DNA of 53,321 nt from an uncultured Paenibacillus sp. (GTDB lineage: Bacteria > Bacillota > Bacilli > Paenibacillales > Paenibacillaceae): contig CAKMKL010000016.1 of assembly GCA_927443375.1 (NCBI GenBank), positions 1 through 53,321 of the forward strand. The letters run 5' to 3'. The notes under the pieces are model-generated. The model had not been told where the DNA came from and did not search any database. It saw only the letters and a list, made by a program, of their open reading frames with translations. Positions 26,930 to 44,029 of this stretch are shown one piece after another; the first letter of the stretch is position 1, and every line of letters begins with the position of its first letter. The position numbers and the translations under genes were made by a program.

Positions 26930-27016
26930 AAGAAAACGTTTTATTATATAATATCTTATTGAAATAACGAGAAGAAAAAGCGATAATAAAGCCTTTAACT
27001 GGCCTACCTATCGCTA

Positions 27017-27228
27017 TAAGCCATAAGGATATAACAGTGAGGATATGTTTCGTTATTGGCCGATGACAGGCAATCCATCATACATTCCTCTATAAAAAGC
27101 ACCTAAATAGTATTCCGGTATGGCCTTTACAAACGGTGTCGGCCATTACAATTTACCACTTTGCTGCGACTCAATGAGTAACATTCGTAAAGCATAAATA
27201 ACAGCACTGGTTCAAAATCGAAGGAGAT
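27017..27228 (-). pseudogene. Decayed second copy of the FAD oxidoreductase gene (both ends kept, middle deleted)
   Basis: Positions 27017-27126 align with 35615-35723 (C-terminal part of the intact oxidoreductase) with about 90% identity by eye and a one-base indel. Positions 27127-27164 align with its N-terminal codons near 36663-36703. Positions 27158-27228 align with its upstream region at 36752-36819. About 940 bp of coding sequence are missing between the first two blocks. A second deletion joins two CACTTTGC copies that lie about 57 bp apart in the intact locus. The copy is clearly non-functional. Confidence 0.85.
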
Positions 27229-27312
27229 TTAAAAGGAGATATTACGATGGAAAACATATATAATGATGGGTGGGACTGAATGATAAATGATCCATAATAA
27301 AGGAGCATATAG

Positions 27313-28137
27313 ATGACGACTTTAAAAGATGTGTGTGAACGTATTTGCTTACCGGATCCAATGGAAAGAAAAGTACTTGAATTTGCAGGTGAAATCGATG
27401 AGAGAATAACAGAGTCATTTTCTGCTGCCCTCTATGATCCATCTTCCTGGGAAAATGGAGTAAAAGAAATAGCCGGCGTACTTGGAGAGGATCCGGATGG
27501 GACCAAAGTGCTCACTTTTATGCTTCTGTGTGCAGTAGATTCCCATAAGGAGTACGAAAAAAGAGGAATCAGCGAGCGGATTTTTACAGATACGATGAAG
27601 TTTTGTACCCGATTCATTGAGGAACATTACAAGCTGTACGGGACATATGCATTCACATGGGCTTGGTGGTTTCCTAGACAGATTTCACTTCGCGAATTCC
27701 GGATTGGTGCACTTGAATATGAAATGATCGAGCAGGAAGAGAAGAAATATATAAATATACATATCCCCGCTGATGCGGATTTGGGGCGGGAGAGTTTGCG
27801 GAAATCCTATGAGGAAGCCCGGGAATTTTTCGCCGAATATTATCCGGATTTTGGTCAGTCCGATATGGTGTGTGATTCTTGGCTGCTTTCCCCTGTTCTA
27901 ACTAAGTTATTACCTGAGAACTCCAACATTCTGGGCTTTCAAAAGGTTTTCGAATTAACACATGTAGATCATTCTAACGACAGCTCTATAAGATGGGTTT
28001 ATGGAAGAACTGATATTCCAATGCAAGAACTTCCAGAGCAAACATCCTTACAGATGAAAATCAAGGCGTATCTGCTGGAAGGCGGTAGCATTGGCGCAGC
28101 CAAAGGAAGACTGAAGGAAGACCCCTGGAAGAGTTAA
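27313..28137 (+). CDS. Acyltransferase-domain protein (NAT_N/GNAT_C type)
   Basis: A 274-residue soluble protein. The N-terminal part (about 1-120) is helical and matches the NAT-like N-terminal domain; the C-terminal part (about 121-270) contains the typical FTWAWWFPRQISLREFRIGA with EYEM of the GNAT_C domain, and later LLSPVLTKLLPENSNILGFQ. Members are annotated only as acyltransferase-domain proteins and the substrate is unknown. The ATG follows AAAGGAG. In the duplicated locus at 36.8 kb the equivalent gene has been deleted down to its last codons, so this is the only copy left. Ancestrally it was divergent from the FAD oxidoreductase. Confidence 0.75.
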   Translation: MTTLKDVCERICLPDPMERKVLEFAGEIDERITESFSAALYDPSSWENGVKEIAGVLGEDPDGTKVLTFMLLCAVDSHKEYEKRGISERIFTDTMKFCTRFIEEHYKLYGTYAFTWAWWFPRQISLREFRIGALEYEMIEQEEKKYINIHIPADADLGRESLRKSYEEAREFFAEYYPDFGQSDMVCDSWLLSPVLTKLLPENSNILGFQKVFELTHVDHSNDSSIRWVYGRTDIPMQELPEQTSLQMKIKAYLLEGGSIGAAKGRLKEDPWKS

Positions 28138-28219: not shown

Positions 28220-28699
28220 TTATAGCTGATTTCCAGATAAGTTCTGCAGCAACAGATTATTATACTTTGCTGCATGCTTCTGCTCATCGAGAATAATGCC
28301 ATACAAAGTATCCTTATAAACGCCATAAGGAAGACCGAACCAGATCTTTCGATACTTTTCCACAGCAGACAATTCACCTTGGAAGGCTTTTTGCAACCCG
28401 GCAATATACGAATGCACATGTTCAGGAACTTCGTTGCTAACCCCTGTCACTTCATGTCCAGTTAATTCTTTGTACATTTGCCGGAACATTTGATTATGCC
28501 CTCGTTCATCATTCCGGATAGAGGTAATCACTTCAGCCTGTTTCTGGTTAGGAGCAAGATGAATGAGCTGGTCATAAAAAAGTTCATCATTTCGTTCCCC
28601 TTGAACTGAGGTTTTCATTAACTCAAGCGCGTCTTGCGTTGATGTTGCCCAAACAGGAACGAATTGTGATCTGAACCAATACGGGTAAATCATATTCAT
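28220..28699 (-). CDS. Ferritin-like (rubrerythrin-fold) diiron protein
   Basis: A 159-residue four-helix protein with a complete diiron ligand set: Glu35 in QGERND, Glu65-x-x-His68 in RNDERGH, Glu109 in FQGELSAVEKY and Glu139-x-x-His142 in LDEQKHAAKY. This E/ExxH/E/ExxH order is that of ferritin-like and rubrerythrin-like proteins, which handle peroxide or iron. No rubredoxin domain is attached. The ATG follows GGAGGG. It lies beside the sulfane-sulfur island, consistent with a redox-stress role, but it has its own transcription signals. Confidence 0.82.
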   Translation of the reverse strand: MNMIYPYWFRSQFVPVWATSTQDALELMKTSVQGERNDELFYDQLIHLAPNQKQAEVITSIRNDERGHNQMFRQMYKELTGHEVTGVSNEVPEHVHSYIAGLQKAFQGELSAVEKYRKIWFGLPYGVYKDTLYGIILDEQKHAAKYNNLLLQNLSGNQL

Positions 28700-28890
28700 G
28701 AGCGTAGCCCTCCGATAATGTAAATAATGTCACTTTCAATTATATGCACATGAGCCTAGTGTGTGATTAATTCTAAGTATCGGTTGATTTTATACAAAGG
28801 TTGCGTACAAGGGGCTACAGGGTGCCAGGTTGTACTAAATCAGATTGGATCCATTCAGTGGATTATTTATCTTTTAATGAATATCACAAA

Positions 28891-28924
28891 GAAAGAATCT
28901 GCTACAGATGTAGCAGATTCTTTC
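28891..28924. terminator. Bidirectional terminator between the CoA-disulfide reductase and ferritin-like genes
   Basis: A perfect 14-bp stem, GAAAGAATCTGCTA (28891-28904)/TAGCAGATTCTTTC (28911-28924), with a 6-nt loop. Its main use is probably for the minus-strand reductase gene that ends at 28979. Confidence 0.75.
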
Positions 28925-28978
28925 TTGATCATTTTTTAAGTCGACTGCTAGGAATTACTTATGCCTCTCATCATTGAT

Positions 28979-30904
28979 TTATCCTTTGCGCAGGTAAGCC
29001 TCGATAGTGCCGTCGGCAAGCTTCGTCAACTGAACAAGACTGTTGCGGGACAGCTTTGCCCATGACTTGATATCTTCAAAAAATCCTTGGTCAGAGGCCG
29101 TTACCTTTAAGAGCTGTCCGTCTTGCAGCCGGTCGATACTCTTTTTTACTTGAATGATCGGACCTGGACAGCAGAGACCACAGGCGTCAATGACTTCATC
29201 AGGCTTCAAATGAACAGTTGCAGACAATTGTTCATTTGAAGCTGTATTTTTGTTTTGTGGGACATATTTACTGATCTGATACGTTTTATAACCACCTGTC
29301 AGATTCTTCACATTGAACCCTTTTTGGGTTAAGATCCGGGAAGCAGTGTAGCCTCTCAAGCCAACCTGGCAATAGACCCAAATTTCCTTGCTGGGGTCAA
29401 GGTCCTCCAGACGATCACGCAGTTCGTCGACAGGAAGGTTTATAGAACCCTCAATATGCCCATTCGCATGCTCAAGTTCGCTTCGAACATCCACCAACAT
29501 GGTGCTGTCCAAATTCCGGCCGGCCAAATCCCCGGGTACAAAAACTTCAGTCATTCCGTTAATTACATTCTCAGCTGTGTATCCGGCCATGTTCACCGGA
29601 TCTTTGGCTGAGGAATATGGAGGAGCATAGGAGAGCTCCAGTTCTGTTAAATCCGTAACGGATCCCTTAAAACGGATTACTGTAGCAATATCGTCAATTC
29701 GTTTGTCCACCCCGTCATAACCGACAGCTTGTGCACCCAAAACCCTGCCATCCTCGTTAAAAAGAAGTTTTAAGGATAGCGGAGTAGCTCCAGGATAATA
29801 GGAAGCATGGGAGTTCGGATGTACATAGACAACACGATACGGGATGCCGAGCCGCTGCAACGTTTTCTCGTTATTCCCGGTGGATGCACCAGTCAGGCCG
29901 AAGACCTTAATAATGGATGTGCCTTGGGTCCCTTTGTAAGTGGTACCTAATCCGCAGACATTGTCTGCAGCAATGCGTCCTTGCTTATTGGCAGGTCCCG
30001 CCAAAGGGACGGCTGCCTTATGTCCGTTCACAAAATCCACGATCTCAACAGCATCGCCTACTGCGTAAACATCATCTAGATTCGTTTCCATTCTTTCGTT
30101 AACCAGGATATGCCCTCTGGGTCCGAATTCAAGGCCGCTATCTTTCAGGAAGGCTGTATCCGGTGAAACGCCGATGGCCAGCAGGACGATCTCGCTTCGT
30201 AGAACAGTACCGCTGGCAAGATGGACCTGAATTTGCTCTCCAGTCTCCTCAAAGCTCTGCACCATGTCGGAGAAAATAAGGTTTACTCCATGATCTTCCA
30301 GCTCTTTGGATAATACGGCAGACATCTCGGAATCGAAGGGAGCCAGTAGTTGAGGGCCTGCTTCAATCAGCGTGACTTCCAGCCCGGCTTCCTTCAGATT
30401 TTCTGCCATTTCCACTCCGATAAATCCGCCGCCGATAACTACCGCAGAACGTGTACCTTCTTCACTCACCTTTGTTTTGATTTTGTCTGTATCCGGAATG
30501 TTCCGTAGTGTGTGAATTTTGGAACTCTCTATTCCAGGCAGAGAAGGACGGATTGGTTTTGCACCTGGCGAGAGAATCAGAGCATCATAGTTCTCCTCAT
30601 ACGAGCCTAGTTCCTTACTTTGCACAACAACCTTTTTCCCAACCGGGTCAATAGAGATCACTTCACTTTGGATGCGAACATCAATATTGAAGCGCTTATG
30701 CATGGCTTCCGGCGTTTGTACAAGCAATTTTGAACGATCCTGTATGGACCCCCCAATATAATAGGGAAGACCGCAATTAGCAAAAGAAATATACGGATCC
30801 CGCTCAAACATCACAATATGTGCTTCTTCATCCAATCTGCGCAAACGAGCTGCCGCTGAGGCGCCTCCTGCAACTCCACCGACAATCAATACTTTTTTAT
30901 TCAT
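28979..30904 (-). CDS. CoA-disulfide reductase-rhodanese-TusA fusion (CoADR-RHD)
   Basis: A 641-residue flavoprotein that reduces CoA persulfide/disulfide or polysulfide with NAD(P)H. FAD-binding VGGVAGGASAAARLRR starts at residue 7, followed by active-site Cys44 in SFANCGLPYY. A second Rossmann motif GGGFIGVEMAENL and the FAD motif VYAVGDAVE follow. The rhodanese domain (about 465-550) has Cys in YCQVGLRGY. A TusA-like sulfur-carrier domain (about 565-641) has DACGLCCPGPIIQVKKSI. All reactive cysteines are present. Its start overlaps the ArsR stop by 4 bases (ATGA), so the pair is one operon under ArsR control. It likely feeds or clears cytoplasmic sulfane sulfur. Confidence 0.93.
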   Translation of the reverse strand: MNKKVLIVGGVAGGASAAARLRRLDEEAHIVMFERDPYISFANCGLPYYIGGSIQDRSKLLVQTPEAMHKRFNIDVRIQSEVISIDPVGKKVVVQSKELGSYEENYDALILSPGAKPIRPSLPGIESSKIHTLRNIPDTDKIKTKVSEEGTRSAVVIGGGFIGVEMAENLKEAGLEVTLIEAGPQLLAPFDSEMSAVLSKELEDHGVNLIFSDMVQSFEETGEQIQVHLASGTVLRSEIVLLAIGVSPDTAFLKDSGLEFGPRGHILVNERMETNLDDVYAVGDAVEIVDFVNGHKAAVPLAGPANKQGRIAADNVCGLGTTYKGTQGTSIIKVFGLTGASTGNNEKTLQRLGIPYRVVYVHPNSHASYYPGATPLSLKLLFNEDGRVLGAQAVGYDGVDKRIDDIATVIRFKGSVTDLTELELSYAPPYSSAKDPVNMAGYTAENVINGMTEVFVPGDLAGRNLDSTMLVDVRSELEHANGHIEGSINLPVDELRDRLEDLDPSKEIWVYCQVGLRGYTASRILTQKGFNVKNLTGGYKTYQISKYVPQNKNTASNEQLSATVHLKPDEVIDACGLCCPGPIIQVKKSIDRLQDGQLLKVTASDQGFFEDIKSWAKLSRNSLVQLTKLADGTIEAYLRKG

Positions 30905-31188
30905 GTTCGATCCTCCCCTAAGATTTGTATCAGATGTTTGATCCTTTCGTCTTTAACGGAATAAATGATCTTGAGGCCATTTTTTTCAGTCTTCACAATA
31001 CCTAAAGATCTAAGCTTCTGGAGATGTTGGGAAACCGTTGATTGTGGAAGTTCCAGACATTCCTGCATGTAGGTCACATTGCAACTTCCATTATCGATGA
31101 TTCCTTTTACAATACATAATCTTACCGGATGGGCTAAAGCCTTTAATAATTCAGCAGCCTGAGCATAGGTTTCAAATGGTTTGTCCAT
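30901..31188 (-). CDS. ArsR/SmtB-family repressor, candidate persulfide sensor
   Basis: A 95-residue winged-helix repressor: LKALAHPVRLCIVKGI, then ECLELPQSTVSQHLQKLR as recognition region and IYSVKDERI as wing. It has three cysteines (in RLC, GSC and QEC). Two are placed around helices 2-3, as in thiol-based sensors such as SqrR/BigR; metal-site residues of ArsR proper are absent. The ATG at 31188 is preferred to the GTG at 31203 because of AGGTGA upstream. It is the first gene of the operon with the CoA-disulfide reductase. A near-perfect palindrome lies 33 bp upstream. Confidence 0.82.
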   Translation of the reverse strand: MDKPFETYAQAAELLKALAHPVRLCIVKGIIDNGSCNVTYMQECLELPQSTVSQHLQKLRSLGIVKTEKNGLKIIYSVKDERIKHLIQILGEDRT

Positions 31189-31220
31189 TGACTGAGAAAT
31201 CACCTCGATCCATTAAAACG

Positions 31221-31244
31221 TTATATCGTAATATTATGATATAA
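31221..31244 (-). promoter_or_regulatory. Palindromic operator upstream of the ArsR-reductase operon
   Basis: TTATATCGTAAT joined to ATTATGATATAA forms a 24-nt palindrome with a single mismatched symmetric pair. It lies between the ArsR start and the rhodanese promoter and is the most probable ArsR site. Confidence 0.6.
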
Positions 31245-31341
31245 AGATATGAAATGCAATCCATCCATTGTGTCGATAATATGGCGGGTTGGGTGCATAC
31301 TACTTTGCTTTATCCAAAAAATTAGTTGGTTGCAAACACTA

Positions 31342-31398
31342 TTGACAAACGGGTTCAACACATTTATGATTTATCCATGATAATACCCATACGGGTAT
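31342..31398 (+). promoter_or_regulatory. Strong promoter with a CsoR/CstR-type operator
   Basis: TTGACA (31342-31347) and TATGAT (31365-31370) are 17 bp apart. Just after the start point lies ATACCCATACGGGTAT (31383-31398), the GC-tract inverted repeat recognised by CsoR-family repressors, among which CstR responds to persulfides. It controls the rhodanese gene at 31450. No CsoR or CstR gene is present in the window. Confidence 0.7.
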
Positions 31399-31449
31399 AC
31401 GTAACAGTTTGTTTTAGCGTCCAGATAAAATACTTCAAGGAGAGATTAA

Positions 31450-31767
31450 ATGGCATTTAAAAATTTAAAAGAAATTACACCCCAGAAGGTAGCAGCACAG
31501 CTCAAGAAAGGGGAGGCTCTTCATTTGCTCGATGTTCGTGAACCTGGAGAATGGGCTGAGGGACACATCGCCGGTGCCAAGCATATTCCGCTTGGACAGC
31601 TGGTGGAGCGGCAACAGGAGCTCGATCCAGCACAAGAAACCATTGTCATCTGTCGGAGCGGAAGCAGGAGCGGTCTGGCTTGCGAACTGCTGGGAGAAAA
31701 AGGATTTAACGTTGTGAACATGACCGGTGGTCTTAGTGCCTGGACGGATAAATTGGTTCGTGATTAA
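31450..31767 (+). CDS. Single-domain rhodanese sulfurtransferase
   Basis: A 105-residue cytoplasmic rhodanese that carries sulfane sulfur on Cys68 in the loop ICRSGSRSG. The CH2A motif region HLLDVREPGEWAEGHIAGA and the final MTGGLSAW are normal for this family. The loop CRSGSRS is that of PspE/GlpE- or CstA-like single-domain enzymes. It is first in a plus-strand row of three rhodaneses and is preceded by a CsoR/CstR-type operator, which argues for induction by persulfide or sulfide stress. The start ATG follows CAAGGAGAG. Confidence 0.93.
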   Translation: MAFKNLKEITPQKVAAQLKKGEALHLLDVREPGEWAEGHIAGAKHIPLGQLVERQQELDPAQETIVICRSGSRSGLACELLGEKGFNVVNMTGGLSAWTDKLVRD

Positions 31768-31841
31768 AGACTTACAGAACCCTACGGCAGTAACTGGAGG
31801 CATAATCAGCTGCTGAAAGCTATTGAAAGGACTGGATCAAC

Positions 31842-32264
31842 ATGATAACACTTTTGTACTTCTTGACTGGGGCTGTGGTCATATGGTTCTTGCGCCAGTT
31901 GTGGCCTGTTCGTTCACTTTCCTATATGGATGTTCACAACTGGGTCCAAGCTAAGGAAAGTTTAAATTTGAAAATGCTCGATGTCAGGGATGCTTCGGAT
32001 TATTTGGAAGGACATATTTCCGGCTCGATAAATATATCTTTAGGGCGTCTTCCTTATGTATGGCAGCACGATCTATTTCCTGATGATAATGTACTAATTC
32101 TGTCCAACAATTGGTACCAAAGCAATAAAGCAGCAAGAATCCTCCTTAAGCATGGATTCCGCAGTTTGTTCACAATACACGGTAATGTATGGTCGGCACA
32201 ATCATGTTATCAAAACGTACCAGCAAAAGGAGGCAGACATTGTGGACACAGGTTCAATCATTAA
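31842..32264 (+). CDS. Membrane-tethered rhodanese-like protein lacking the active-site cysteine
   Basis: A 140-residue protein with an N-terminal membrane helix (LLYFLTGAVVIWFLRQL) and a rhodanese fold (MLDVRDASDYLEGHISGSIN, KAARILLKHGFRSL). Aligned on KAARILL with its neighbour, the catalytic cysteine corresponds to Ser88 and the active-site loop reads ILSNNWYQSN, so sulfurtransferase activity is not expected. The last 23 bases overlap the next gene, which may have eroded the C-terminus. It could bind a partner or signal, or be on its way to loss. Confidence 0.75.
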   Translation: MITLLYFLTGAVVIWFLRQLWPVRSLSYMDVHNWVQAKESLNLKMLDVRDASDYLEGHISGSINISLGRLPYVWQHDLFPDDNVLILSNNWYQSNKAARILLKHGFRSLFTIHGNVWSAQSCYQNVPAKGGRHCGHRFNH

Positions 32265-32628
32265 CATTGCAGTGATTGTATTATTGCTCTGGTTTGTTTA
32301 TTCCCGCATAAGACCGGCTAAAGGATTAAAGGCGCTCAGCGCTGAAGAATTCCAAAATGTGATGGAGGGCAGTGAGAAACGGATGCTCATAGATGTACGG
32401 GAGCCAGGAGAGTATAAGACAGGATATATCAACGGTGCGAAGAACATCCCCTTATCCCAACTGTCTGGCCGTTTAGGGGAAATACCTAAGGAGAAAGCTG
32501 TTTTTCTATACTGCCGCAGTGGTATGCGAAGCAAGAATGCGGCAAGAATTCTGCTGAAAAACGGTCATACAGGGCTTGTTCACCTGCAAGGTGGCTTGAG
32601 CGCTTGGAGCGGTAAGCTGAAACGTTGA
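32242..32628 (+). CDS. Membrane-tethered rhodanese sulfurtransferase
   Basis: A 128-residue protein. One N-terminal membrane helix (IINIAVIVLLLWFVY) is followed by a complete rhodanese domain with LIDVREPGEYKTGYINGA, catalytic Cys91 in LYCRSGMRSKNAARIL and LQGGLSAWSGK. The GTG at 32242 follows AAAGGAGG and is preferred over the longer frame that begins inside the previous gene. It shares the unusual tethered layout with its inactive neighbour, which suggests gene duplication. It is probably in one transcript with the two upstream rhodaneses. Confidence 0.88.
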   Translation: MDTGSIINIAVIVLLLWFVYSRIRPAKGLKALSAEEFQNVMEGSEKRMLIDVREPGEYKTGYINGAKNIPLSQLSGRLGEIPKEKAVFLYCRSGMRSKNAARILLKNGHTGLVHLQGGLSAWSGKLKR

Positions 32629-32696
32629 TAAGGATTCAGACCTTTAAGACCTCGCTATGTTCTGATATAAAAATGACAAGAGAAGGATAAAGTATC

Positions 32697-32815
32697 TTGT
32701 TCCATTATACTGTTGAAACACCAAGTCACCTGAACAAGCGATCTTAGCACTTACAGAAAACCTGAAGGCAGCAAATTTCGGTGTTCTTTGGCAGAAGAAT
32801 ATGGATACTCGAAAG
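32697..32815 (+). pseudogene. N-terminal remnant of a DUF302-domain protein
   Basis: TTG at 32697 (after AAGGATAA) starts LFHYTVETP. A single missing A in what was probably CCAAAGTCA shifts the frame, after which SPEQAILALTENLKAANFGV continues with LWQ. This is the start of DUF302 proteins (FHYTVETPKSPEQAI...). The remaining two-thirds of the domain is absent and the fragment runs straight into a terminator hairpin. DUF302 genes often accompany rhodanese clusters, so this was probably the last gene of the rhodanese operon. Confidence 0.65.
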
Positions 32816-32854
32816 AAAAGAACCAATCCCGGGAGACCGGTGATTGGTTCTTTT
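32816..32854 (+). terminator. Terminator of the rhodanese operon
   Basis: AAAAGAACCAATC (32816-32828) pairs perfectly with GATTGGTTCTTTT (32842-32854). The loop contains a second small stem, CCGG-GAGA-CCGG, with a GNRA tetraloop. Confidence 0.85.
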
Positions 32855-32982
32855 GAAGTTTGGTTACGTTGAAAACACTTGCAGAAGTCAGCCTCTGAGA
32901 TCGTATAGAAGGTTTTCTCATAATAACAGCCTTCATTATTTGTTACAGTTTGATATGGGGAAAAGGGGGGGATGTGTATTCT

Positions 32983-33279
32983 TTATTCAATCACTTCTTT
33001 GAGCTGTATTTGCGGAAATAAGACGCTAAGTAGCTCCGTGGCCTGTTGATCCTTGATTTGGTAAATAACTTCCAGGCCTTTTCTGGACCCTTCAATAATA
33101 CCGGCACTACGCAGCTTTTGTAAGTGCATAGACAGGGTTGATTGAGGAAGCTCCAAGCAGTTTTGCATTTCGGTTACATTACAGCTATTTTTCTCTATCA
33201 ACCCTTGAATAATACAAAGTCGAACAGGGTGCGCGATAACTTTAAGCCATTCCGCTTTTCTAATATAGTGTTCTTCCAT
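32983..33279 (-). CDS. ArsR/SmtB-family repressor, paralogue of the one at 31.0 kb
   Basis: A 98-residue repressor closely similar to the other ArsR in this island: LKVIAHPVRLCIIQGLIEKN, then NCLELPQSTLSMHLQKLR and VIYQIKDQQ. The same three cysteine positions are kept (RLC, NSC, QNC), which supports a shared thiol or persulfide signal. The ATG at 33279 lies behind AAGGAA at usable spacing; the GTG at 33288 does not. It is monocistronic on the minus strand, divergent from the lgt remnant, whose loss may have left it without its original target. Confidence 0.82.
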   Translation of the reverse strand: MEEHYIRKAEWLKVIAHPVRLCIIQGLIEKNSCNVTEMQNCLELPQSTLSMHLQKLRSAGIIEGSRKGLEVIYQIKDQQATELLSVLFPQIQLKEVIE

Positions 33280-33311
33280 AGAGTTCACTTCCTTATAGGT
33301 TTCGTCTTACA

Positions 33312-33338
33312 TTATAGCACCATGATATTGAGATATAA
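33312..33338 (-). promoter_or_regulatory. Possible ArsR operator, related to the site at 31.2 kb
   Basis: TTATAGC at the left and GATATAA at the right resemble the outer arms of the palindrome at 31221-31244 but with a longer centre. It lies 33 bp upstream of the second ArsR gene. Confidence 0.35.
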
Positions 33339-33384
33339 ATAATACCCAATATTACAATGGTTATTCTCTACAGGCGGGTGCTGA

Positions 33385-33838: not shown

Positions 33839-35296
33839 ATGCATTCAAAAAAATTCTTTACGTACAGTCCTTCTGAAAGTCTTACCAGCCGGAAGGGTTA
33901 CCATTGGCTGGTTGTCTTTACGGTGTGCATAGGTGCCTTTATGGCCGCTCTTGATGCAAGTATTATCAATCTTGCACTACCCACATTGGTTCGGCAATTT
34001 GGTATAAGCATGTCTGAGGCAGAATGGATTAGTCTGGTTTACTTACTGACCCTTGCATCGCTTGTTATTCCATTTGGAAGACTCGCGGATATGTTTGGCC
34101 GCCGCTGGATGTATGCAGCAGGCTTTGGTGTTTTTTTGTTCAGTTCCTTATTATGTGGATTATCGACTAATTTAACTATGCTGTTACTTTCAAGGGCGTT
34201 ACAAGCCATTGGAGCCGCTATGTTACAAGCCAATAGTGTGTCCATTATTACTGCTTCTACCCCGCTGAAGCATCGGGGAAAAGCCATTGGCATTCAGGCG
34301 AGTGCACAAGGGGTTGGACTGAGCCTGGGTCCAGTCATTGGTGGAGCTTTTCTTTCGATAGGCGATTGGCGCTGGCTGTTTTTTGTCAATATTCCAATTG
34401 GTATTATAGGTACAATCATGGCAATATTTTTACTTCCGAAAGATATACTGGGCAAGAATCGAGAATCATTCGACTATTGGGGTGGTATATTTCTTATTCC
34501 GGCTTTAGTCCTGATCGTATATGTATTGAACCAAGGAGAGAGTACTGGATGGACATCACCCATTATAACATTATGCTTATTCGCAGGTTTACTCGCACTA
34601 ACTTCGTTTATCAGAGAAGAACGCCGTTCTAATTCTCCATTACTTGATTTAAAATTGTTTAAAAATAGTATCTTTTTGACAGGTAATATAGCAAGCTTCC
34701 TTTCTTTTTCAGCGATGTATGGGGTGTTGCTTCTCAGTCCGTTTTTAATCGAAAGTGAATTTCACACGACCATTGCTATGACCGGATTTTATTTATCATT
34801 TGTTCCGATCGGCATGACTGTTTTCACACCCATTTCCGGTTATATATCGGATCGGTTTGGGATTCGCTTCCCCGCAATTATGGGGATGAGCGCAGTCTTT
34901 GGAGGGTGCGTTTTACTGGCTTTCATCCAAAAAGAGAACGATATTCCGCTTCTTCTTTCGGGTCTATTGTTAGTTGGTATTGGTATGGGGATCTTTACCC
35001 CTCCCAATAACAGTCATGTCATGGGAAGTGTGCCTAAAGAGCGACTAGGAGTTGCAGGTGCAACATTAAATATGAGTCGAACGATTGGTATGGGGATGGG
35101 GGTTACATTAAGTGGGATGTTATACCAAATGGCACTTAGGATAATGCCAGCTACAAGTAAACCATCAAATATTTCGGCTTTTAGAATCTCTTTTGTGCTT
35201 ATAGGGTTATTGAGCGCTGCTGCACTATTTATAGCACTTTTTCAGAAGAAAACTGGGCATAAGTACAGCGAGGAGTTCATCGAATACTATATTTAA
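33839..35296 (+). CDS. DHA2-family MFS exporter (14 TM)
   Basis: A 485-residue exporter of the EmrB/QacA type with fourteen predicted membrane segments. Family marks are FMAALDASIINLALPTLVRQ with the TM1 Asp, MSEAEWISLVYLLTLAS, the motif A loop GRLADMFGRRW and motif C region GLSLGPVIGGAF. The protein is intact and of normal length. The ATG sits 11-13 bp after AAAGGGGA. It is a single gene with a terminator 66 bp downstream; no regulator is adjacent. The substrate cannot be inferred. Confidence 0.88.
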   Translation: MHSKKFFTYSPSESLTSRKGYHWLVVFTVCIGAFMAALDASIINLALPTLVRQFGISMSEAEWISLVYLLTLASLVIPFGRLADMFGRRWMYAAGFGVFLFSSLLCGLSTNLTMLLLSRALQAIGAAMLQANSVSIITASTPLKHRGKAIGIQASAQGVGLSLGPVIGGAFLSIGDWRWLFFVNIPIGIIGTIMAIFLLPKDILGKNRESFDYWGGIFLIPALVLIVYVLNQGESTGWTSPIITLCLFAGLLALTSFIREERRSNSPLLDLKLFKNSIFLTGNIASFLSFSAMYGVLLLSPFLIESEFHTTIAMTGFYLSFVPIGMTVFTPISGYISDRFGIRFPAIMGMSAVFGGCVLLAFIQKENDIPLLLSGLLLVGIGMGIFTPPNNSHVMGSVPKERLGVAGATLNMSRTIGMGMGVTLSGMLYQMALRIMPATSKPSNISAFRISFVLIGLLSAAALFIALFQKKTGHKYSEEFIEYYI

Positions 35297-35361
35297 AAGC
35301 TAATCATTTCAATCGCCAAAAGAAGAACGGTAAGTAGACACCTTGGAAGGGTTAACCGGTA

Positions 35362-35393
35362 AAAACGGGAGTTGCAAAGGCATCTCCCGTTTT
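35362..35393 (+). terminator. Rho-independent terminator of the DHA2 gene
   Basis: AAAACGGGAG (35362-35371) pairs perfectly with CTCCCGTTTT (35384-35393) around a 12-nt loop. Confidence 0.85.
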
Positions 35394-35493
35394 CAGTTAG
35401 CGAAAGTAGTTCTGTATATGCGGATACCACCAACGTAAGTGTTATGGTCGATAAACAATCGCGGACTAACTTCCGATACAACATAAATACATC

Positions 35494-36711
35494 TTACGGG
35501 GTAACAAGAGGTCTGCTTTGGAGGTAGATTTTCATATCCGGGCTGGATCCAGATAGAATCTGGTCCGAAACAACTTTGGCTAAGACCCCGTTATATACGG
35601 TTCCGTTATCTCCGTAAGCCATAAGGATATAACAATGAGGATATGTCTCGTATTGGCCGATGACAGGCAATCCATCATGCGTTCCTCCATAAAAAGCACC
35701 TAAATAGTATTCCGGTATGGCCTGAATGTCCGGGAATAAATTGTTAAACGCCCCAATAAGTTTGTCCTTGCTTGAAAGGATTCTAGAATCCCTTGTTTCA
35801 GCGTAGGATGTATCCTTATCCATACCACCAATAATAACCCGGTTGTCAGGGGTCGTACGCATGTATACATAGGGGCGTGCTGTTTCCCATATTAATGTTC
35901 TTTTATGCCAGCTTGAAAAATCGGCGATCGGTTTCGTGATGACGGCATAGGAGCTTGCCAGTGTAGCATTTTTTTCGGTTTTGAAGTCGCTGTCTTCATA
36001 ACCGGCCGCAATGATGACATGTCTGGCCCGAATTTCTCGTTTTTCTTTGGTGTAAAACAGGGCATAATCCTGTTCAAAACGCCTGCCTGTTATTTCCGTA
36101 TTTTCATAAATCAATCCACCCTGTGACTTTACTTTTTCAAGAAGCCCATATACAAATTTAAGCGGGTTCATCTCGGCATCATCGTGATAGTACAGTGCTG
36201 CCTGTTTTTGAAAAGGATAATGCCCCGATATCCGCTGGGCATCCCAAAGATCTACTTTAAACCCGTATTTCTTAAGAAGAACGTGTTCTTCGGTTAATTC
36301 AGAAATATCCTCCTTGGAGCTTGCGTAATACAGGCTGTCTCGTCTTATAAAATCGGGATCAATGGGTAATTGACGGCTTACCCGCTCAATGTCGGTAATA
36401 GACTGCTCACATAGTTTAAGATGACGCGCAGCCACTTGTTCACCAAAAGAGTGGCTCAGCGATACAAAACTTTTCTCTCCGGCATATTGAATCAAAGCGG
36501 TATTGCTGCTGGTACTGCCTTCTCCGGCTTTTCTTTTGTCTACTACAACGACGGACATCCCTTGTTCACAAAGGATATTTGCACACTGGGCGCCGGAGCT
36601 GCCCGCACCAATAATGAGTACATCACAGGATATGTCCTCTTCTAGCCTAGGATAAGAAGGAGGATTAACAACCGTTGTCGGCCAGTACAATTTACCACTT
36701 TGCAGATCCAT
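35494..36711 (-). CDS. FAD-dependent amino-acid oxidase-like oxidoreductase (DAO family)
   Basis: A 405-residue flavoprotein of the D-amino-acid/glycine oxidase (DAO) family. The dinucleotide-binding motif CDVLIIGAGSSGAQCANIL is at about residues 29-47, followed by VDKRKAGEGSTSSNTALIQY, where the flavin usually packs. HVIIAAGYE and the C-terminal PVIGQYETYPHCYILMAYGD with GDNG complete the FAD site. No signal peptide or Rieske domain is attached; the family acts on amines or amino acids and the substrate is unknown. The ATG follows AAGGGAGA. A decayed duplicate lies at 27017-27228. Confidence 0.87.
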   Translation of the reverse strand: MDLQSGKLYWPTTVVNPPSYPRLEEDISCDVLIIGAGSSGAQCANILCEQGMSVVVVDKRKAGEGSTSSNTALIQYAGEKSFVSLSHSFGEQVAARHLKLCEQSITDIERVSRQLPIDPDFIRRDSLYYASSKEDISELTEEHVLLKKYGFKVDLWDAQRISGHYPFQKQAALYYHDDAEMNPLKFVYGLLEKVKSQGGLIYENTEITGRRFEQDYALFYTKEKREIRARHVIIAAGYEDSDFKTEKNATLASSYAVITKPIADFSSWHKRTLIWETARPYVYMRTTPDNRVIIGGMDKDTSYAETRDSRILSSKDKLIGAFNNLFPDIQAIPEYYLGAFYGGTHDGLPVIGQYETYPHCYILMAYGDNGTVYNGVLAKVVSDQILSGSSPDMKIYLQSRPLVTP

Positions 36712-36799
36712 ATCAAGTCTCCCTTATTCATATTTCGATACTTAGTATGGACACTTTGCTGCGACTCGATGCAAATTTATGGAGCATTAATACAACAAT

Positions 36800-36853
36800 G
36801 GTTCAAAATCGAAGGAGATGATCGATAGGAAGACCCCTGAAGGGTTAATCTGT
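36800..36853 (+). pseudogene. Deletion scar of the acyltransferase-like gene (second copy)
   Basis: GGTTCAAAATCGAAGGAGAT at 36800-36819 matches 27209-27228, and AGGAAGACCCCTG at 36827-36839, with following bases to 36853, matches the last codons and stop region of the acyltransferase-like gene at 28115-28140. Only 7 bases separate the blocks here, against about 886 in the intact copy. The gene has therefore been removed, leaving its leader joined to its 3' end. Confidence 0.75.
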
Positions 36854-36882
36854 CGGTGGACAAGATCATAGTCATATCAGAT

Positions 36883-36904
36883 CCCGCGCCTAGCGCGGGT
36901 TTTC
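36883..36904 (+). terminator. Terminator hairpin after the deletion scar
   Basis: CCCGCGC (36883-36889) pairs with GCGCGGG (36893-36899) and is followed by TTTTC. It probably once terminated the lost acyltransferase-like gene. Confidence 0.7.
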
Positions 36905-37197
36905 TGTTTTATTAGATGGAGTTATGCTGATATCGGAACTGAAATTCACACCAGCTTCGGTCTGTAGAGGAGAATACAGATACGCTTGACTCTTATCGTC
37001 AAAGTATATCAGCATCGTATACAACATTTCTCATTTACCATATTATATATACTATGGTATTTTCTTGCTTTAATTTATACTGTGTAAAGCCACTACTGAA
37101 GCACTTTGGTTATTTACCTGGCAGCACTGCGAATCGGGCTTAGAAAAGAAGATTCGATGAAGAGAGAACGTTATTTTCTATAAGGGGAGGGTGTTAA
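36905..37197. other. 293-nt gap before a broken two-component system
   Basis: No intact gene is seen. A 10-bp inverted repeat ATGCTGATAT (36924-36933)/ATATCAGCAT (37006-37015) brackets about 70 bp. An AT-rich stretch near 37040-37065 could hold a promoter. A good AGGGGAGGG site precedes the broken regulator at 37198. Confidence 0.3.
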
Positions 37198-37816
37198 TTG
37201 AACAGAAACGTATTATTTATTGAAGATAATGAGAAAATTGGCAGCTGCTTAAAAGAAGAATTGGAACAGCGGGGATTTTCAGTTCAGTGGCTGCTTTCTG
37301 GTGAAGGAGCTGAAAAAGAAGTGAATCAGCATAAAATCGTTATTTTGGATATCATATTACCCGGTTTAGACGGATTTACGGTGGGAAAACGGTTAAAAAA
37401 GGCAGCTCCTGCTGTTCCTATTTTAGTGTTATCTGCTCGAACATCGATAGGTGATAAGGTAGAGGGTTTACAGTTTGCTGAAGATTATCTAACGAAACCA
37501 TTCCATACAGATGAGTTAGTTGCAAGATTAGAAGTATTAATCCGTCGAAGTGGAGTAATACATTCCGAACGCATATCATTAGGAAATCATATTGACAGGG
37601 AAACAACATAAAATTTTAATGTACTTTCTAAGCCACCCTAATCAAGTTTTACCAAAAGAACAAATTTATGAAGCCATTTGGGAAGAACCCTATATAACTG
37701 GTGATAAAACAGTACTGGTACATATCCATCGACTGCGTCAAAAGTTGGAACGACATCCGGATTCCCCAGAGATTATTGAAACGTTGAAGGGAATAGGCTA
37801 TCGGGTGAAGCTATGA
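37198..37816 (+). pseudogene. Frameshifted OmpR-family response regulator
   Basis: The TTG at 37198 starts a receiver: VLFIEDNEKIGSCLKEEL, phospho-acceptor Asp in VILDIILPGLDGF, and YLTKPFHTDELVARL. One residue of the usual GADDYL motif is lost (FAEDYL). The frame ends early at 37611. The winged-helix continues in another frame from about 37592 with LTGKQHKILMYFL, TVLVHIHRLRQKLERHPDSP and GIGYRVKL. About 15-20 linker residues are also missing between the halves. It therefore carries a deletion with a frame change and is not functional as a transcription factor. Confidence 0.85.
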
Positions 37817-37926
37817 AACAAACCCGGTCATTATTCCGCCGTTTTCTAAAAGTGCATTTTCTATTTATCTTTTTTCCTCCAATAGTGTTAATATTCTACT
37901 CTGCGTCTTTGTATGAAGCTGGCTAA
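37813..37926 (+). pseudogene. N-terminal stub of the partner histidine kinase
   Basis: An ATG at 37813 overlaps the regulator stop by 4 bases, the usual regulator-kinase junction. It encodes only 37 residues: KQTRSLFRRFLKVHFLFIFF and the rest of a first membrane helix, then a stop. The sensor, dimerisation and ATPase domains are gone. Confidence 0.7.
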
Positions 37927-37995
37927 TACCTGCATAGCACCAACGAAAACGTTCAATCTTGCAGGCATACAAACGTCGAGTATTATCGTGCCAAA

Positions 37996-38047
37996 ACGGC
38001 GGTGCAGGGACAAACTCCCTAGCTCCGCCGTCTCTTTAATTTAGGCA
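37996..38047 (+). terminator. Terminator after the broken two-component system
   Basis: ACGGCGG (37996-38002) pairs with CCGCCGT (38035-38041), with an inner AGGGA/TCCCT stem, followed by a T-rich CTCTTT. Confidence 0.6.
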
Positions 38048-38082
38048 CCTTTAACAAGATTCGAGGGTTAGCCTGTTTTTAT

Positions 38083-38631
38083 CTAAAGACTTCTATCTAA
38101 CAATATCCCTACTTGCTTAGCCATAACTTGTGGCGGATAAGGCATTCCATTTCGGATCCACCATTCAATGATTCCAACATAAGCGTTCCCTGCATATTGC
38201 ACCATAATATCTTCAGTTAAATCCATATTTTTATCGCTTTCTTTGTCAATCTCCCCCTTGAATCCTTCTATAAAGGAAGCGAGGAGCCGTGTTCTGAAGG
38301 AGGAGGGAGTGTCCTTACTGGCTAACATCGTTGAAAAGAATAAATAATGTTTCTCGAAATATTCGAAATAAGGGACAAGAGCATCTATCCAATCCAGCTT
38401 ACATGCCCACTCATCCATTTCCTCTAATTCAGCAAGATGCATTTCAATGAGTTTATCCAATAAATCGAACTTGTCCTGGTAATGCAAATAGAGTGTTCCG
38501 CGGTTCACATTTGCACGGTCTGCAATATCTTGGATGGTAATCTCATCGAATTTTTTTTCATTCATCAACTCGATGACAGCTGTTTTCAAAGATTCCTGCG
38601 TTTTAAGAATTCTCCGGTCGATTTTTGCCAT
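38083..38631 (-). CDS. TetR-family transcriptional repressor
   Basis: A 182-residue repressor. The N-terminal HTH spans residues 8-55 with ITIQDIADRANVNRGTLYLH followed by YQDKFDLLDKLIE, and the C-terminal ligand domain is of the TetR_C type (FFSTMLASKDTPSSF, YVGIIEWWIRNGMPYPPQVM). The start MAKIDRRILKTQESL at 38631 is typical of this subgroup; the longer frame adds 14 residues with no ribosome site. It is divergent from the Bcr/CflA exporter and dehydrogenase, which it probably represses. I saw no convincing palindrome in the gap. Confidence 0.85.
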   Translation of the reverse strand: MAKIDRRILKTQESLKTAVIELMNEKKFDEITIQDIADRANVNRGTLYLHYQDKFDLLDKLIEMHLAELEEMDEWACKLDWIDALVPYFEYFEKHYLFFSTMLASKDTPSSFRTRLLASFIEGFKGEIDKESDKNMDLTEDIMVQYAGNAYVGIIEWWIRNGMPYPPQVMAKQVGILLDRSL

Positions 38632-38714
38632 TCGGATATTCACCAATCCTTTTATTATAATAAACAGATTCATTAGTTATGTTGAGTTATGAACAAATAC
38701 CGTTCTTTTAACTA

Positions 38715-38742
38715 TTGAACATGAAGCTCTAACTTATATAAT
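38715..38742 (+). promoter_or_regulatory. Predicted promoter for the Bcr/CflA-dehydrogenase operon
   Basis: TTGAAC (38715-38720) and TATAAT (38737-38742) are 16 bp apart in the TetR/exporter divergent gap, about 110 bp before the first gene. Confidence 0.45.
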
Positions 38743-38851
38743 AATAGACACGAGTTGAATATACAATTCTTTTCGTTTACTAAAATTTAGCGGAAAACGG
38801 AAGTGAGGCGAGCGGTTTTTTAAGGACAATAAGAAGGTTTAAGGAGTATTT

Positions 38852-40081
38852 TTGGATATGAATACGAAGATTGTAAATTATTCTATCGGATTTGCCCTTT
38901 TGTTAGCTGCTTTTTCAGCCTTGGGGCCATTTACGGTAGATATGTACCTCTCGTCACTGCCAAAAATCATGGTTTTTTTCGGAACCAACACCTCCATGAT
39001 TCAAGCGAGTCTTACAGCCAGCCTATTAGGATTAGGCTTAGGGCAACTGTTAATGGGACCCTTAAGCGATAGCTATGGAAGACGCATGCCTTTGCTGATT
39101 TCCATGATCTTGTACATTCTCACCTCGTTTGGATGTGCGTTTGCACCGAATGTTGAATGGTTTATCACATTGAGATTTTTTCAGGGTGTTGCTGCTTCCG
39201 CCGGGCTCGTTATTTCACGTGCTATCGTTCGCGACTGGTTTAATGGCGTTGAAATGACTAAATTTATTGCACTGCTTACAATGATAAGTAATGTGGCTCC
39301 ATTAATTTCGCCTACGGCCGGAAGTGCAGTTGTTTCCTTCACCTCATGGATAGGCGTGTTTATTGTCCTGGGGTTGTTAGGTCTGTTATTAACGGGGATG
39401 ACAATCTGGGGTGTAAAAGAAAGTCTGCCCGCCGAGCAACGTGTACCAAGCAATCTCCGATCGTTAATGAGAAACTATACGGGCTTGTTGCGGGACCGGT
39501 CGTTTATGGGGTATGCCCTTGTGAATGGCTTATTGTTCGCCGGTGTATTTGCTTATGTTGCAGCTACTCCATTCATTTACCAAAACATATACGGTGTATC
39601 ACCTCAAGTATTTTCGATTCTCTTTGCATTAAATGGCCTTGCCATTATTTTTGGCTCTCAGTGCGTGAAATGGCTAGCAGGCCGATGGACAGAGCATCGT
39701 ATTTTTGGGATCGGACTAATGATGGCTTTTATTGCTACAGCTGCAATTCTTTTAATAGTGCTTATCCATGGCCCTCTATTCAGCTTGTTTATTTCAATTT
39801 TCTTGTTCGCAGCTTCCATTGGGATCATTGGACCTATTTCTTTTACACTGGCGATGGAATCGCAAGGGCATATTGCCGGTAGTGCATCTGCAGTACTCGG
39901 TACACTTCAATTTTCCCTTGGTGCCGTTACGTCCCCGCTGGTGGGGATCTCAGGTGAGAAATCGGCGGCGGCTTTTGGAATCACTATTTTTGCGACCAGT
40001 CTATTATCCATCATTTTTTATTTCTTACTCATTCAAAAGGCAAAAAACATAAGATTACAGGAGGATTTGAACTATGATTAA
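38852..40081 (+). CDS. Bcr/CflA-family MFS drug exporter (12 TM)
   Basis: A 409-residue exporter. The family signatures are [18 protein letters not shown] in TM1, [20 protein letters not shown] (motif A), [21 protein letters not shown] and [15 protein letters not shown] (motif C-like). TTG at 38852 has AAGGAG at 5 bp; an in-frame ATG at 38858 is the alternative and changes only two residues. It overlaps the alcohol dehydrogenase gene by 8 bases and is divergent from a TetR repressor, so the three form one regulated unit. Confidence 0.9.
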
Positions 40082-41123
40082 TGTTAATGCTCGCGCTGTA
40101 TTCAGCCCGGAAGGCTCATTCAAACTGACCAGCATAAAGCGCCGGGATTTGCAGCCGCACGATATCCTCATTGAGATCAAATACTCTGGTATTTGTCATT
40201 CTGACATCCATGCCGCCCGCGGTGAATGGGGGCCAACCCAATATCCTTTCGTACCAGGGCATGAGATCGCGGGCATTGTAGCCCGGATTGGTCCGGAAGT
40301 CACTAAATATGCTGTTGGCGACCGGGTAGGGGTAGGGTGTATGGTTGATTCGTGCCGGGAGTGCGACAGCTGCCGCAAGGGGGAGGAACAATACTGCCAT
40401 AACGGACATACGGGTACCTATGGATCGGTCGATAAGTACGGTCAGTTTACCCAGGGCGGTTATTCCACACATATCGTGGTGACTGAAGACTTCGTAGTCC
40501 GGATTCCTGATGAAATTGGGCTTGACGTTGCAGCTCCGCTCTTGTGTGCAGGCATAACAACCTACTCGCCACTGCGTCATTGGGGGGCTGCACCTGGCAA
40601 AAAAGTAGCGATAGTCGGACTAGGCGGGCTCGGACATATGGCGGTAAAGCTTGCTCACGCAATGGGGGCAAAGGTTACTGTTCTATCTCAAACACTGAAG
40701 AAAAAAGAAGACGGTCTCCAGCTTGGTGCGGATGAATATTACGCTACGGGCGATCCGGAAACGTTCCGTAAGCTGGCCAATTCATTTGACCTGATCATCA
40801 ACACAGTTAGCGCAGCAATTGATCTGAATGCCTACTTATCCTTGCTTGCAGTAGACGGTACCTTGGTAAATGTCGGTGCGCCGGCGGAACCTTTGCCTAT
40901 TCAAGTATTCTCTCTTATCCCTCAGCGTAAATCGTTTGCCGGCTCGGCAATCGGCGGTATCCGCGAAACACAAGAAATGCTCGATTTCTGCGCTGAACAT
41001 CATATTACTCCAGAGATTGAGATTATTTCTGCCAGCCGGATTGATGAGGCTTGGGCACGGGTGCTTGCTTCAGATGTACGCTACCGGTTTGTAATCGACA
41101 TTAGCACGATGAATAACGAATAA
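40074..41123 (+). CDS. Zinc-dependent NAD(P) alcohol dehydrogenase (cinnamyl/YahK-like)
   Basis: A 349-residue MDR dehydrogenase reducing aldehydes to alcohols. Catalytic zinc ligands lie in [15 protein letters not shown] and PGHEIAGIV; the structural zinc loop has four cysteines in [20 protein letters not shown] (three in CRECDSC plus the final C). The coenzyme motif is [19 protein letters not shown]. Length and ligands are intact. It is translationally coupled to the Bcr/CflA exporter (8-bp overlap, AGGAGG upstream), suggesting joint detoxification of a reactive aldehyde or aromatic compound. An aldo/keto reductase remnant follows immediately, so the operon once had a third gene. Confidence 0.92.
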
Positions 41124-41271
41124 TTGATTCAATTTTGCCAAAAGAATGACATCCTGGTAGAGGCCTATTCGCCAATTGCACATGGCGCTATTCTGGATCA
41201 TGCCGGGGGTTACAGAAATTGCGAAAACATATGGTGCATCTGTGGCTCAGCTTAGCGGCAAATCACCATAG
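41124..41271 (+). pseudogene. Aldo/keto reductase remnant
   Basis: Directly after the dehydrogenase stop the frame reads LIQFCQKNDILVEAYSPIAH then GAILDHAG. After a run of five G (one extra) the match continues one frame over as VTEIAKTYGASVAQLS. In aldo/keto reductases these segments (Q..C....I...AYSPL.HG, and IA..YG.S.AQ..IRW) lie about 170-220 residues into the protein. Both ends are missing, so it is an internal fragment with a homopolymer frameshift. Confidence 0.75.
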
Positions 41272-41346
41272 GAATATTTGAGGCTGTCCGCTTCATTGCA
41301 TATAATGAAGGTACCCCCTTCGGGGAGATCGTTAAGGGAGGCCGCG

Positions 41347-42303: not shown

Positions 42304-42378
42304 ATTTCGTTATTGGCTTACGTCTATATTATTGAGAATAACCAAACGACGAATATCATGAGAGAGGTGTCTATTAAA

Positions 42379-42804: not shown

Positions 42805-42814
42805 TCATTGCGAA

Positions 42815-42850
42815 AAAGACGCCGGGGAAGATGCCGGCGTCTTTATTTTT
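42815..42850 (+). terminator. Terminator of the sigma-SRPBCC unit
   Basis: AAAGACGCCGG (42815-42825) pairs perfectly with CCGGCGTCTTT (42834-42844), followed by ATTTTT. Confidence 0.9.
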
Positions 42851-42874
42851 GAACCCTAGTACGCTCCGTTAGCC

Positions 42875-43291: not shown

Positions 43292-43318
43292 TTTCAAAAC
43301 ACCTCTTCGTCAAATTAG

Positions 43319-43556
43319 TTTGAGTTCATTTATGCCTTCGTTTATATAGACGACAGCCGACCCGGGGATTCATCGGTTTCATGGATTCGGAAGACTGAAT
43401 TTTGTAAAATAACTTGGTATTGCATCTTTGTGCCTGAAGAAAGATTGGAGTATCACCGTACTTTGAAGCATGATTTGGAAATTTATAAGGTATGGGTTGA
43501 CTTCTTAGCCCCTTATGGGAGTATAAACACCCGGTCACGAAACCAAGATTCATTTA
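43319..43556 (+). other. Start-less open frame of 79 codons in a 363-nt gap, unrecognised
   Basis: After a TAG at 43316-43318 the plus strand stays open to 43556, reading FIYAFVYIDDSRPGDSSVSW and VPEERLEYHRTLKHDLEIYK. The composition is protein-like and there is no start codon or ribosome site, so it may be the 3' end of a lost gene. No family assigned. The rest of the gap holds the DUF326 ribosome site. Confidence 0.3.
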
Positions 43557-44011: not shown

Positions 44012-44029
44012 CGGGTAAAATGAACCATC

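Follow-up and report, generated by a model that had tools for sequence, protein, structure and literature searches.

The window analysed here is contig C16 (53,321 bp) of a Paenibacillus draft genome (4.68 Mb, 421 contigs), and it carries genes for an FAD oxidoreductase (DAO) and an NAT_N/GNAT_C acyltransferase (NAT). These two genes, formerly divergent neighbours, are now 7.4 kb apart. Broken remnants of both genes are present, related genomes have a single homologous site, and the order of the surrounding blocks is interleaved relative to that in the relatives. The explanation we favour, with a probability of about 0.7, is a tandem duplication of the segment that runs from the 3′ side of DAO to an MFS gene right of a block designated W, followed by complementary deletions. 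We infer that the duplication was tandem rather than dispersed, and likewise its size, its mechanism and the order of events. Coordinates refer to the window unless a relative is named. The surviving genes are:

27313..28137, plus strand, surviving NAT of copy 1; 274 aa; PF18164 (8.4e-42) and PF18082 (1.7e-21); 90 % amino acid identity to Paenibacillus auburnensis.
35494..36711, minus strand, surviving DAO of copy 2; 405-aa FAD amine oxidase; PF01266 (9.6e-51); 97 % amino acid identity to P. auburnensis.

The remnants and flanking sequences at the two sites, near 27 kb (copy 1, left) and at 35.5-36.9 kb (copy 2, right), are:

26939..27015, left flank, with the terminator that followed the lost copy-1 DAO; 85.7 % identical to G083 3404582-3404657.
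27009..27126, minus strand, DAO 3′-part remnant of copy 1, a pseudogene piece with two TAA codons; 92.4 % identical to 35607-35723 (E 3.8e-42); 60 % amino acid identity to residues 323-357.
27126..27164, minus strand, DAO 5′-end remnant of copy 1; 89.7 % identical to 36665-36703 (E 2e-7).
27157..27228, divergent intergenic region of copy 1; 80.6 % identical to 36752-36819 (E 4e-10).
35315..35362, plus strand, third NAT 3′-end trace, immediately left of the intact DAO; identical to P. auburnensis in 33 of 41 aligned columns.
35364..35398, terminator-like sequence downstream of DAO in copy 2; 88.6 % identical to P. auburnensis 919775-919809.
36752..36819, divergent intergenic region of copy 2; matches 27157-27228.
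36828..36854, plus strand, NAT 3′-end scar of copy 2; 89.3 % identical to 28115-28142.

Three of the matches between the two sites (27009-27126, 27126-27164 and 27157-27228 with their copy-2 counterparts) were recovered when the whole window was compared with itself. The fourth, 28115-28142 with 36828-36854, emerged only when the two sites were compared directly (2.2 x 2.5 kb; E 3.8e-4) and falls short of E 1e-3 in the whole-window comparison, yet its position fits the block order. All four are collinear and on a single strand, and they are not due to chance. A sequence-only reading of this DNA had claimed four matching blocks, and each is present at, or a few bases from, the position given for it. 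One of them, 27209-27228 with 36800-36819, is real but is only the last 20 bases of the block at 27157-27228 and 36752-36819. The gene content had also been described correctly, namely a whole NAT (open 274-codon frame) beside a broken DAO at 27 kb and an open 405-codon DAO beside a NAT 3′-end scar at the other site. The scar at 36828-36854 was in its inventory, but the third NAT 3′-end trace at 35315-35362 had been overlooked.

The ancestral arrangement of the pair was sought in 100 genomes of the genus, the window's own genome included. NAT orthologs (E ≤1e-50) are present in 10 genomes, and DAO matches (E ≤1e-140) in 22, with 14 of the 100 counted as having a DAO ortholog at ≥84 % identity; seven genomes, including that of the window, have both genes. 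In P. auburnensis (G011), P. ihuae (G009) and two further mapped relatives, G083 and G119, DAO and NAT are divergent neighbours approximately 120-195 bp apart at one site. Both genes are open in P. auburnensis, G083 and G119, and identity with the window continues across the junctions. The P. ihuae DAO is crossed by a run of N and was therefore not counted as a pseudogene. In G036 and G099 the genes are 8-9 kb apart (8.3 kb in G099), and in G036 DAO is interrupted by a TGA and divided between two frames, through either error or decay. In the window the genes are separated and their order is reversed. The proposal of the sequence-only reading, that a divergent DAO/NAT pair was duplicated and then underwent complementary loss, is thus borne out by the adjacent genes in four relatives. 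The outcome that would have refuted it, namely two genes not adjacent in any relative, was not observed.

When DAO was searched for (tblastn, E ≤1e-3) in 17 NAT loci, it was found only in those from P. auburnensis, P. ihuae and G099; this set excludes the part of G036 that holds DAO, and the Paenibacillus sp. DMB5 locus L052 (genome G099) ends short of DAO. The other NAT loci examined have no DAO within the stretch covered. A co-occurrence test on the genome counts gave p = 2e-5, which is not independent evidence because the genomes are related. DAO/NAT adjacency is clade-limited and neither gene is widespread in the genus; most of the 100 genomes lack a close ortholog of DAO, NAT or both, though both genes are constrained. 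The suggestion that both functions are needed is not supported in the form in which it was put, with NAT in 10, DAO in 14 and both in 7 of the 100 genomes, despite purifying selection. Nor is a link between the two families borne out, as the genes are adjacent in four of the seven genomes with both, 8-9 kb apart in two, and the seventh is the window.

The change extends well beyond the pair. The remaining blocks, which include a rubrerythrin-family gene (Rub), are:

28220..28699, minus strand, surviving Rub, copy 1; PF02915 (1.7e-9); between X and Z in P. auburnensis.
28831..33350, block W, copy-1 side, identified by Pfam and mapping; right of Z in relatives.
33839..35296, plus strand, EmrB-type MFS efflux gene at the right end of the copy-1 side; TIGR00711 (249.5 bits, cutoff 230.2).
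36829..41256, block X, copy-2 side; TetR regulator, MFS gene and zinc alcohol dehydrogenase; pieces of P. auburnensis 922013-925896.
41265..49569, block Z, copy-2 side; sigma-70-family factor, AHSA1 gene and 1522-aa subtilase-like protein.
49601..52499, block V, spoVD-like penicillin-binding protein; P. auburnensis 950130-953126, right of W in that species.

In P. auburnensis the blocks are ordered DAO-NAT-X-Rub-Z-W-V. G083 has the same DAO-NAT-Rub-Z-W order, as do P. ihuae and G119 apart from extra copies, and the P. auburnensis type of order was therefore taken as ancestral. Taken in that order, the window positions are 35.5-36.8 kb (DAO), 27.2-28.1 kb (NAT), 36.8-41.26 kb (X), 28.2-28.8 kb (Rub), 41.27-49.57 kb (Z), 28.9-33.35 kb (W) and 49.6-52.5 kb (V). 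The window thus reads NAT-Rub-W, then DAO-X-Z-V, without inversions. Numbered as in P. auburnensis, its seven blocks follow the order 2-4-6-1-3-5-7 on one strand throughout, a perfect interleave of two ascending runs, which is a signature of tandem duplication with complementary loss. Only 120 of the 5040 possible orders have one descent, and two of those 120 keep no adjacency. With remnants included, the layout is the left flank, then broken DAO, NAT, Rub, W and MFS, then NAT tail, DAO, NAT scar, X, Z and V. The duplication had been presented as an isolated two-gene change, which is contradicted by the placement of Rub, W and MFS with copy 1 and of X, Z and V with copy 2; the DNA between the two sites and to the right of them also belongs to the rearrangement.

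Mapping supports these assignments. The left flank (17.0-26.8 kb) stops before the pair when mapped on P. auburnensis. The Rub region, 28226-28830, corresponds to P. auburnensis 929789-930392. Block W contains a gene resembling CoA-disulfide reductase with rhodanese and TusA domains (28979-30904, minus strand), an ArsR-type regulator and rhodaneses; 28908-33350 maps in three pieces to P. auburnensis 940372-948970, 28932-33357 to G083 3435860-3444657, and 28831-31298 to G119 3165737-3168210. The MFS efflux gene is collinear with W in P. ihuae (2607399-2608924) and was not found in the P. auburnensis or G083 stretches. Block X is 88.7 % identical to P. auburnensis over its first 221 bp and 94.8-96.9 % elsewhere, and block Z consists of pieces of P. 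auburnensis 930969-939836, the long ones 94.4-95.6 % identical. Block V may lie outside the duplicated unit. The next P. auburnensis stretch, 953.4-957.3 kb, is on contig C264 of the same draft, and from the order we infer that C264 follows C16.

Under the favoured explanation, the tandem duplication, or an amplification, would have taken place in the lineage of the window Paenibacillus, about the time when it separated from P. auburnensis. NAT, Rub, W and MFS would have survived in the left copy, with DAO and Z deleted from it, and DAO, X and Z in the right copy, with NAT, Rub and W deleted. Deletions, including one or more between short repeats, would have removed redundant genes from either copy. 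Once useful genes had been lost from different copies, there could be no return to a single copy without loss. The net outcome would be a new gene order with no gene gain, in which DAO and NAT are probably each behind their own half of the old shared promoter region.

The remnants carry the detail of this decay. The G083 sequence matched by the copy-1 left flank (3404582-3404657) sits left of the intact DAO in that genome, and 26976-27015 is 90 % identical to P. auburnensis 919725-919764. Relative to P. auburnensis, the copy-1 DAO has deletions of approximately 164, 942 and 56 bp. Between its two remaining pieces some 940 bp are gone, such that P. auburnensis positions 920038 and 920980 adjoin. 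The ~56-bp deletion, which joins the DAO 5′-end remnant to the intergenic region, lies between two 8-bp CACTTTGC direct repeats, both still visible in copy 2. Of the copy-2 NAT, everything is deleted except the last codons.

These decayed copies, with their real substitutions and deletions, bear on the possibility that the assembler misjoined two strains near 35.3 kb, one with the NAT version and one with the DAO version, into a chimeric contig. The draft is fragmented and incomplete (71.7 % complete), which speaks for a chimera, but its estimated contamination is 0.28 %, and complementary losses in two strains plus a misjoin without evident shared sequence would be required. In addition, when P. 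auburnensis 920-960 kb, NAT and DAO were searched against the draft, none of the seven blocks turned up whole a second time (0/7), nor did any overlapping second version of the blocks shared with P. auburnensis; the search left out the MFS gene, which P. auburnensis lacks. We regard a chimera as highly improbable.

The third NAT trace (35315-35362) has a local score of 38 against the NAT tails of P. auburnensis and G083. Among 5979 random windows drawn from the stretches of five genomes, three reach 38, each being a NAT end or the known scar, and the best of the remaining windows scores 28; this comparison is post hoc, as the trace had been noticed first. The 12-base core of the trace has one exact match in the window, and its sole one-mismatch match is the real NAT end; two matches at ≤1 mismatch are also reached in 5 of 100 shuffles, which makes this search weak alone. 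A possible duplication junction is visible here, where the extra NAT tail stands between the MFS stop at 35296 and the DAO flank at 35364. As the NAT tail is directly joined to DAO, an extra head-to-tail duplication of the pair would have occurred besides or before the larger event, which suggests at least two nested duplications. A nested extra duplication of the pair would account for the NAT tail joined to the surviving DAO.

The same NAT ends can be read differently, namely that only the DAO/NAT pair (~2.3 kb) was tandemly duplicated and that a ready-made Rub-W-MFS segment (~28.15-35.31 kb) was inserted later, e.g. as an excised circle re-integrated via the NAT tail, the original Rub and W having disappeared from where they stood. 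A NAT 3′ end does flank Rub-W-MFS on both sides (28.1 and 35.3 kb), the right one abutting DAO. G119, like copy 1, has NAT next to Rub, and the W region moves between species, with ~37 kb around W 99.3-99.9 % identical in P. ihuae and G119. However, separate Rub and W losses would be required exactly where these are absent in copy 2, and mapping of the four relatives revealed no Rub-W-MFS segment free of other genes. The window W also groups with that of P. auburnensis, hence it is not a recent import from another sampled species. We consider this course of events unlikely, though less so than a chimera.

The origin of the blocks was examined using unrooted trees of four or five species. The window and P. 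auburnensis group apart from the others for NAT (support 97), W (100 and 100), DAO (100) and Z (99 and 97), and for two of three left-flank pieces (100 and 96), the third left-flank gene giving no resolved grouping. For V there are three sequences and no tree. The synonymous distance to P. auburnensis is 0.236 for NAT and 0.215 for DAO, and the ratios of nonsynonymous to synonymous substitution against that species are 0.21 and 0.07, respectively. Both survivors are under purifying selection. The NAT branch is 0.056 in the window lineage versus 0.032 in P. auburnensis, NAT being the faster gene in the window lineage. Taken together, the trees, the synonymous distances and the ratios place both survivors in the lineage of the window and under constraint. 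Within the sample of five species, the block trees reject the idea that either copy came from a distant horizontal donor.

Mixed ancestry within the clade was also considered, in which a resident DAO-NAT-Rub site like that of P. ihuae was joined through recombination by a DAO-NAT-X site like that of P. auburnensis, each then losing one gene (xenologous merodiploidy). The NAT 3′ flank and the intergenic sequence are P. ihuae-like in copy 1 and P. auburnensis-like in copy 2, and BLAST identities to P. auburnensis vary, from 95-97 % over most of X and 94-96 % over Z to 93 % in the left flank and 89 % in the NAT/Rub stretches. Yet the trees pair the window with P. auburnensis for NAT, W, DAO and Z alike, the NAT and DAO synonymous distances are similar, and the NAT coding part alone is 92.0 % identical to P. 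auburnensis. Moreover, two DAO-remnant substitutions are common to both window copies only, among the five clade species, though one is also in the more distant G030. This makes such an origin improbable, only marginally less so than a chimera.

Several observations weigh against the favoured duplication and loss. The draft is incomplete and in 421 contigs, as noted above. A third NAT tail would not be expected from a single duplication, and scars were seen for DAO and NAT only, the other copy having yielded no trace of Rub, Z or W. Three stretches within the unit that P. auburnensis shares with one other relative are gone from both window copies, namely 926-928.9 kb (shared with G083), 933.3-934.4 kb (G119) and 943-946.8 kb (G083); for the first and last of these the draft has weak partial matches only (C393, 71 %, and C50, 76 %). 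The stretch at 915.6-919.6 kb, left of DAO and common to all four relatives, is also gone from the window, with two weak short matches in the draft. The Rub tree (565 bp) has no resolved grouping, and the window Rub may correspond to either Rub1 or Rub2 of P. ihuae and G119. The DAO remnant pieces favour the window copies as sisters, and the intergenic and NAT-end pieces favour copy 2 with P. auburnensis; neither topology is rejected (approximately unbiased test, p 0.15-0.89), and only copy 1 with P. auburnensis is disfavoured (p 0.04, 0.05 and 0.06). Finally, X may never have been in copy 1 and may have entered copy 2 only, because the copy-1 NAT flank is P. ihuae-like and the copy-2 flank P. 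auburnensis-like; G119 has no X between NAT and Rub.

A second duplication is indicated in P. ihuae and G119. In P. ihuae pieces of X and Z occur a second time, in shredded form, at 2511.8-2512.8 kb (locus L063, 2501202-2512768). In G119 (L095, 3003096-3010450) the sigma-factor gene of Z is at 3003.1-3004.1 kb and the next conserved stretch (window 42805-43410) at 3009.8-3010.5 kb, with 88 bp present at both Z positions (92 %). The second copies in the two genomes have the same right flank, and hence there appears to have been one shared duplication of block Z, resolved in opposite ways in these sister species; the tree of the second copies has a support of 60, and orthology is not settled. 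The two also share a second Rub with an MFS 3′ remnant beside it, which is fused to the W start in G119, the join falling inside a run of N in P. ihuae. We propose, tentatively and at somewhat short of even odds, that the region is a recurrent reshuffling site where tandem duplication with complementary loss occurred independently, once in the lineage of the window and one or more times in the ancestor shared by P. ihuae and G119.

In the same two genomes, approximately 37 kb (P. ihuae 2565.6-2603.4 kb, L124-L126; G119 3150.6-3188.4 kb, L131-L133) are 99.3-99.9 % identical and a further 6.4 kb (2628.6-2635.0 kb and 3047.8-3054.2 kb) are 100 % identical. Other compared stretches are 87-97 % identical, and therefore the near-identity of the ~37 kb reflects either recent exchange or contamination of one record.

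Solved-structure and family searches offer only broad functional hints for DAO and NAT. The nearest solved relatives of NAT are Dbv8 (2.7e-16) and Tcp24 (3.5e-16), which are glycopeptide N-acyltransferases; the resemblance covers residues 81-266 of 274 only, and no NCBIfam model was reached. The nearest solved relative of DAO is glycine oxidase (1e-6), and DAO also resembles L-pipecolate oxidase, below the NCBIfam cutoff; in each of the best 25 of 38 NCBIfam rows DAO falls below the respective cutoff. A common pathway for DAO and NAT is possible. A functional DAO/NAT system was set aside as the main story, since adjacency is confined to one clade.

Other features of the region were recorded. 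Within block X, the MFS and alcohol dehydrogenase genes are whole in the window and cut by internal deletions in P. auburnensis (922.3-923.6 kb; L061 2290-3611). A response-regulator gene (37188-37910) lies inside block X in the window and after block V in P. ihuae (2507727-2508507); relative to P. ihuae the window gene is disrupted, with ~59 bp gone at the break. In block Z, the gene for the 1522-aa subtilase-like protein (44773-49570; L052 11102-15900) is 92 % identical in Paenibacillus sp. DMB5, and other stretches common to the window and DMB5 are 72-84 % identical; the gene was likely transferred. A dispersed 43-bp repeat (86 % identical) is present at 8078-8120 and 25087-25128, with related copies in the P. 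auburnensis, G083 and G119 stretches. Terminator-like inverted repeats are found at 28889-28926 (38 bp, 94.7 %) and 22607-22659 (53 bp, 83 %), and a 53-bp direct repeat (81 %; 15769-15821 and 16051-16103) lies within a 2142-codon open reading frame (9841-16269). Scans of the window with Rfam (gathering threshold) and for tRNA genes gave no matches.

The window case would be a further instance of a process that has already been described. Tandem duplication-random loss (TDRL) in animal mitochondria produces two ascending runs, single-copy retention, no inversions and leftovers of the duplicated genes. The window shares the two runs, the single-copy retention, the lack of inversion and the remnants, which are at the expected places for DAO and NAT, none being found for Rub, Z or W; the single unduplicated ancestral site is seen in the one DAO-NAT site of P. 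auburnensis, G083, G119 and P. ihuae. It differs in being on a bacterial chromosome, in its ~30-kb unit (measured in P. auburnensis), in the possible nested duplication and in the stretches lost from both copies. In yeast, whole-genome duplication was likewise followed by reciprocal gene loss, which left the genes interleaved when compared with an unduplicated relative. Interleaved single-copy retention against such a relative is seen here too, but for a local segment rather than a whole genome. A study by Cao et al. (2022) reportedly describes irreversible gene-order rearrangement under positive selection.

For bacteria, the SNAP model holds that a segment is duplicated, different genes are inactivated in each copy and the rearranged order is fixed, and pseudogenes paired with active copies are named as one trace that it may leave (Brandis and Hughes 2020, PMC7055797). 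For natural isolates that article reports the first two steps only, and it states that, as of 2020, present-day species had provided no direct empirical evidence. SNAP was invoked in a 2021 study for changes in operon clusters. Under the favoured explanation, the window shares with SNAP the duplication, the loss of different genes per copy, the rearranged order and the pseudogenes with active copies; the core of SNAP is positive selection on the duplication, and the duplication in the window lineage may have been either selected or subject to drift with random loss. In the titles and abstract openings searched, no natural bacterial case of such a rearrangement was found, and tandem duplication-random loss together with bacteria returned only papers on mitochondrial genomes.

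The mode of gene-order change in bacteria is an open question. If the favoured explanation is correct, the window would be a natural, scar-bearing case of gene order rewritten by duplication and complementary decay, of the SNAP or TDRL type, in a bacterium. Its trace, made up of the seven-block interleave, three NAT 3′ ends and a whole DAO besides a broken one, is readable against unduplicated relatives, and a SNAP-type model would thereby become testable by comparative genomics within one genus.
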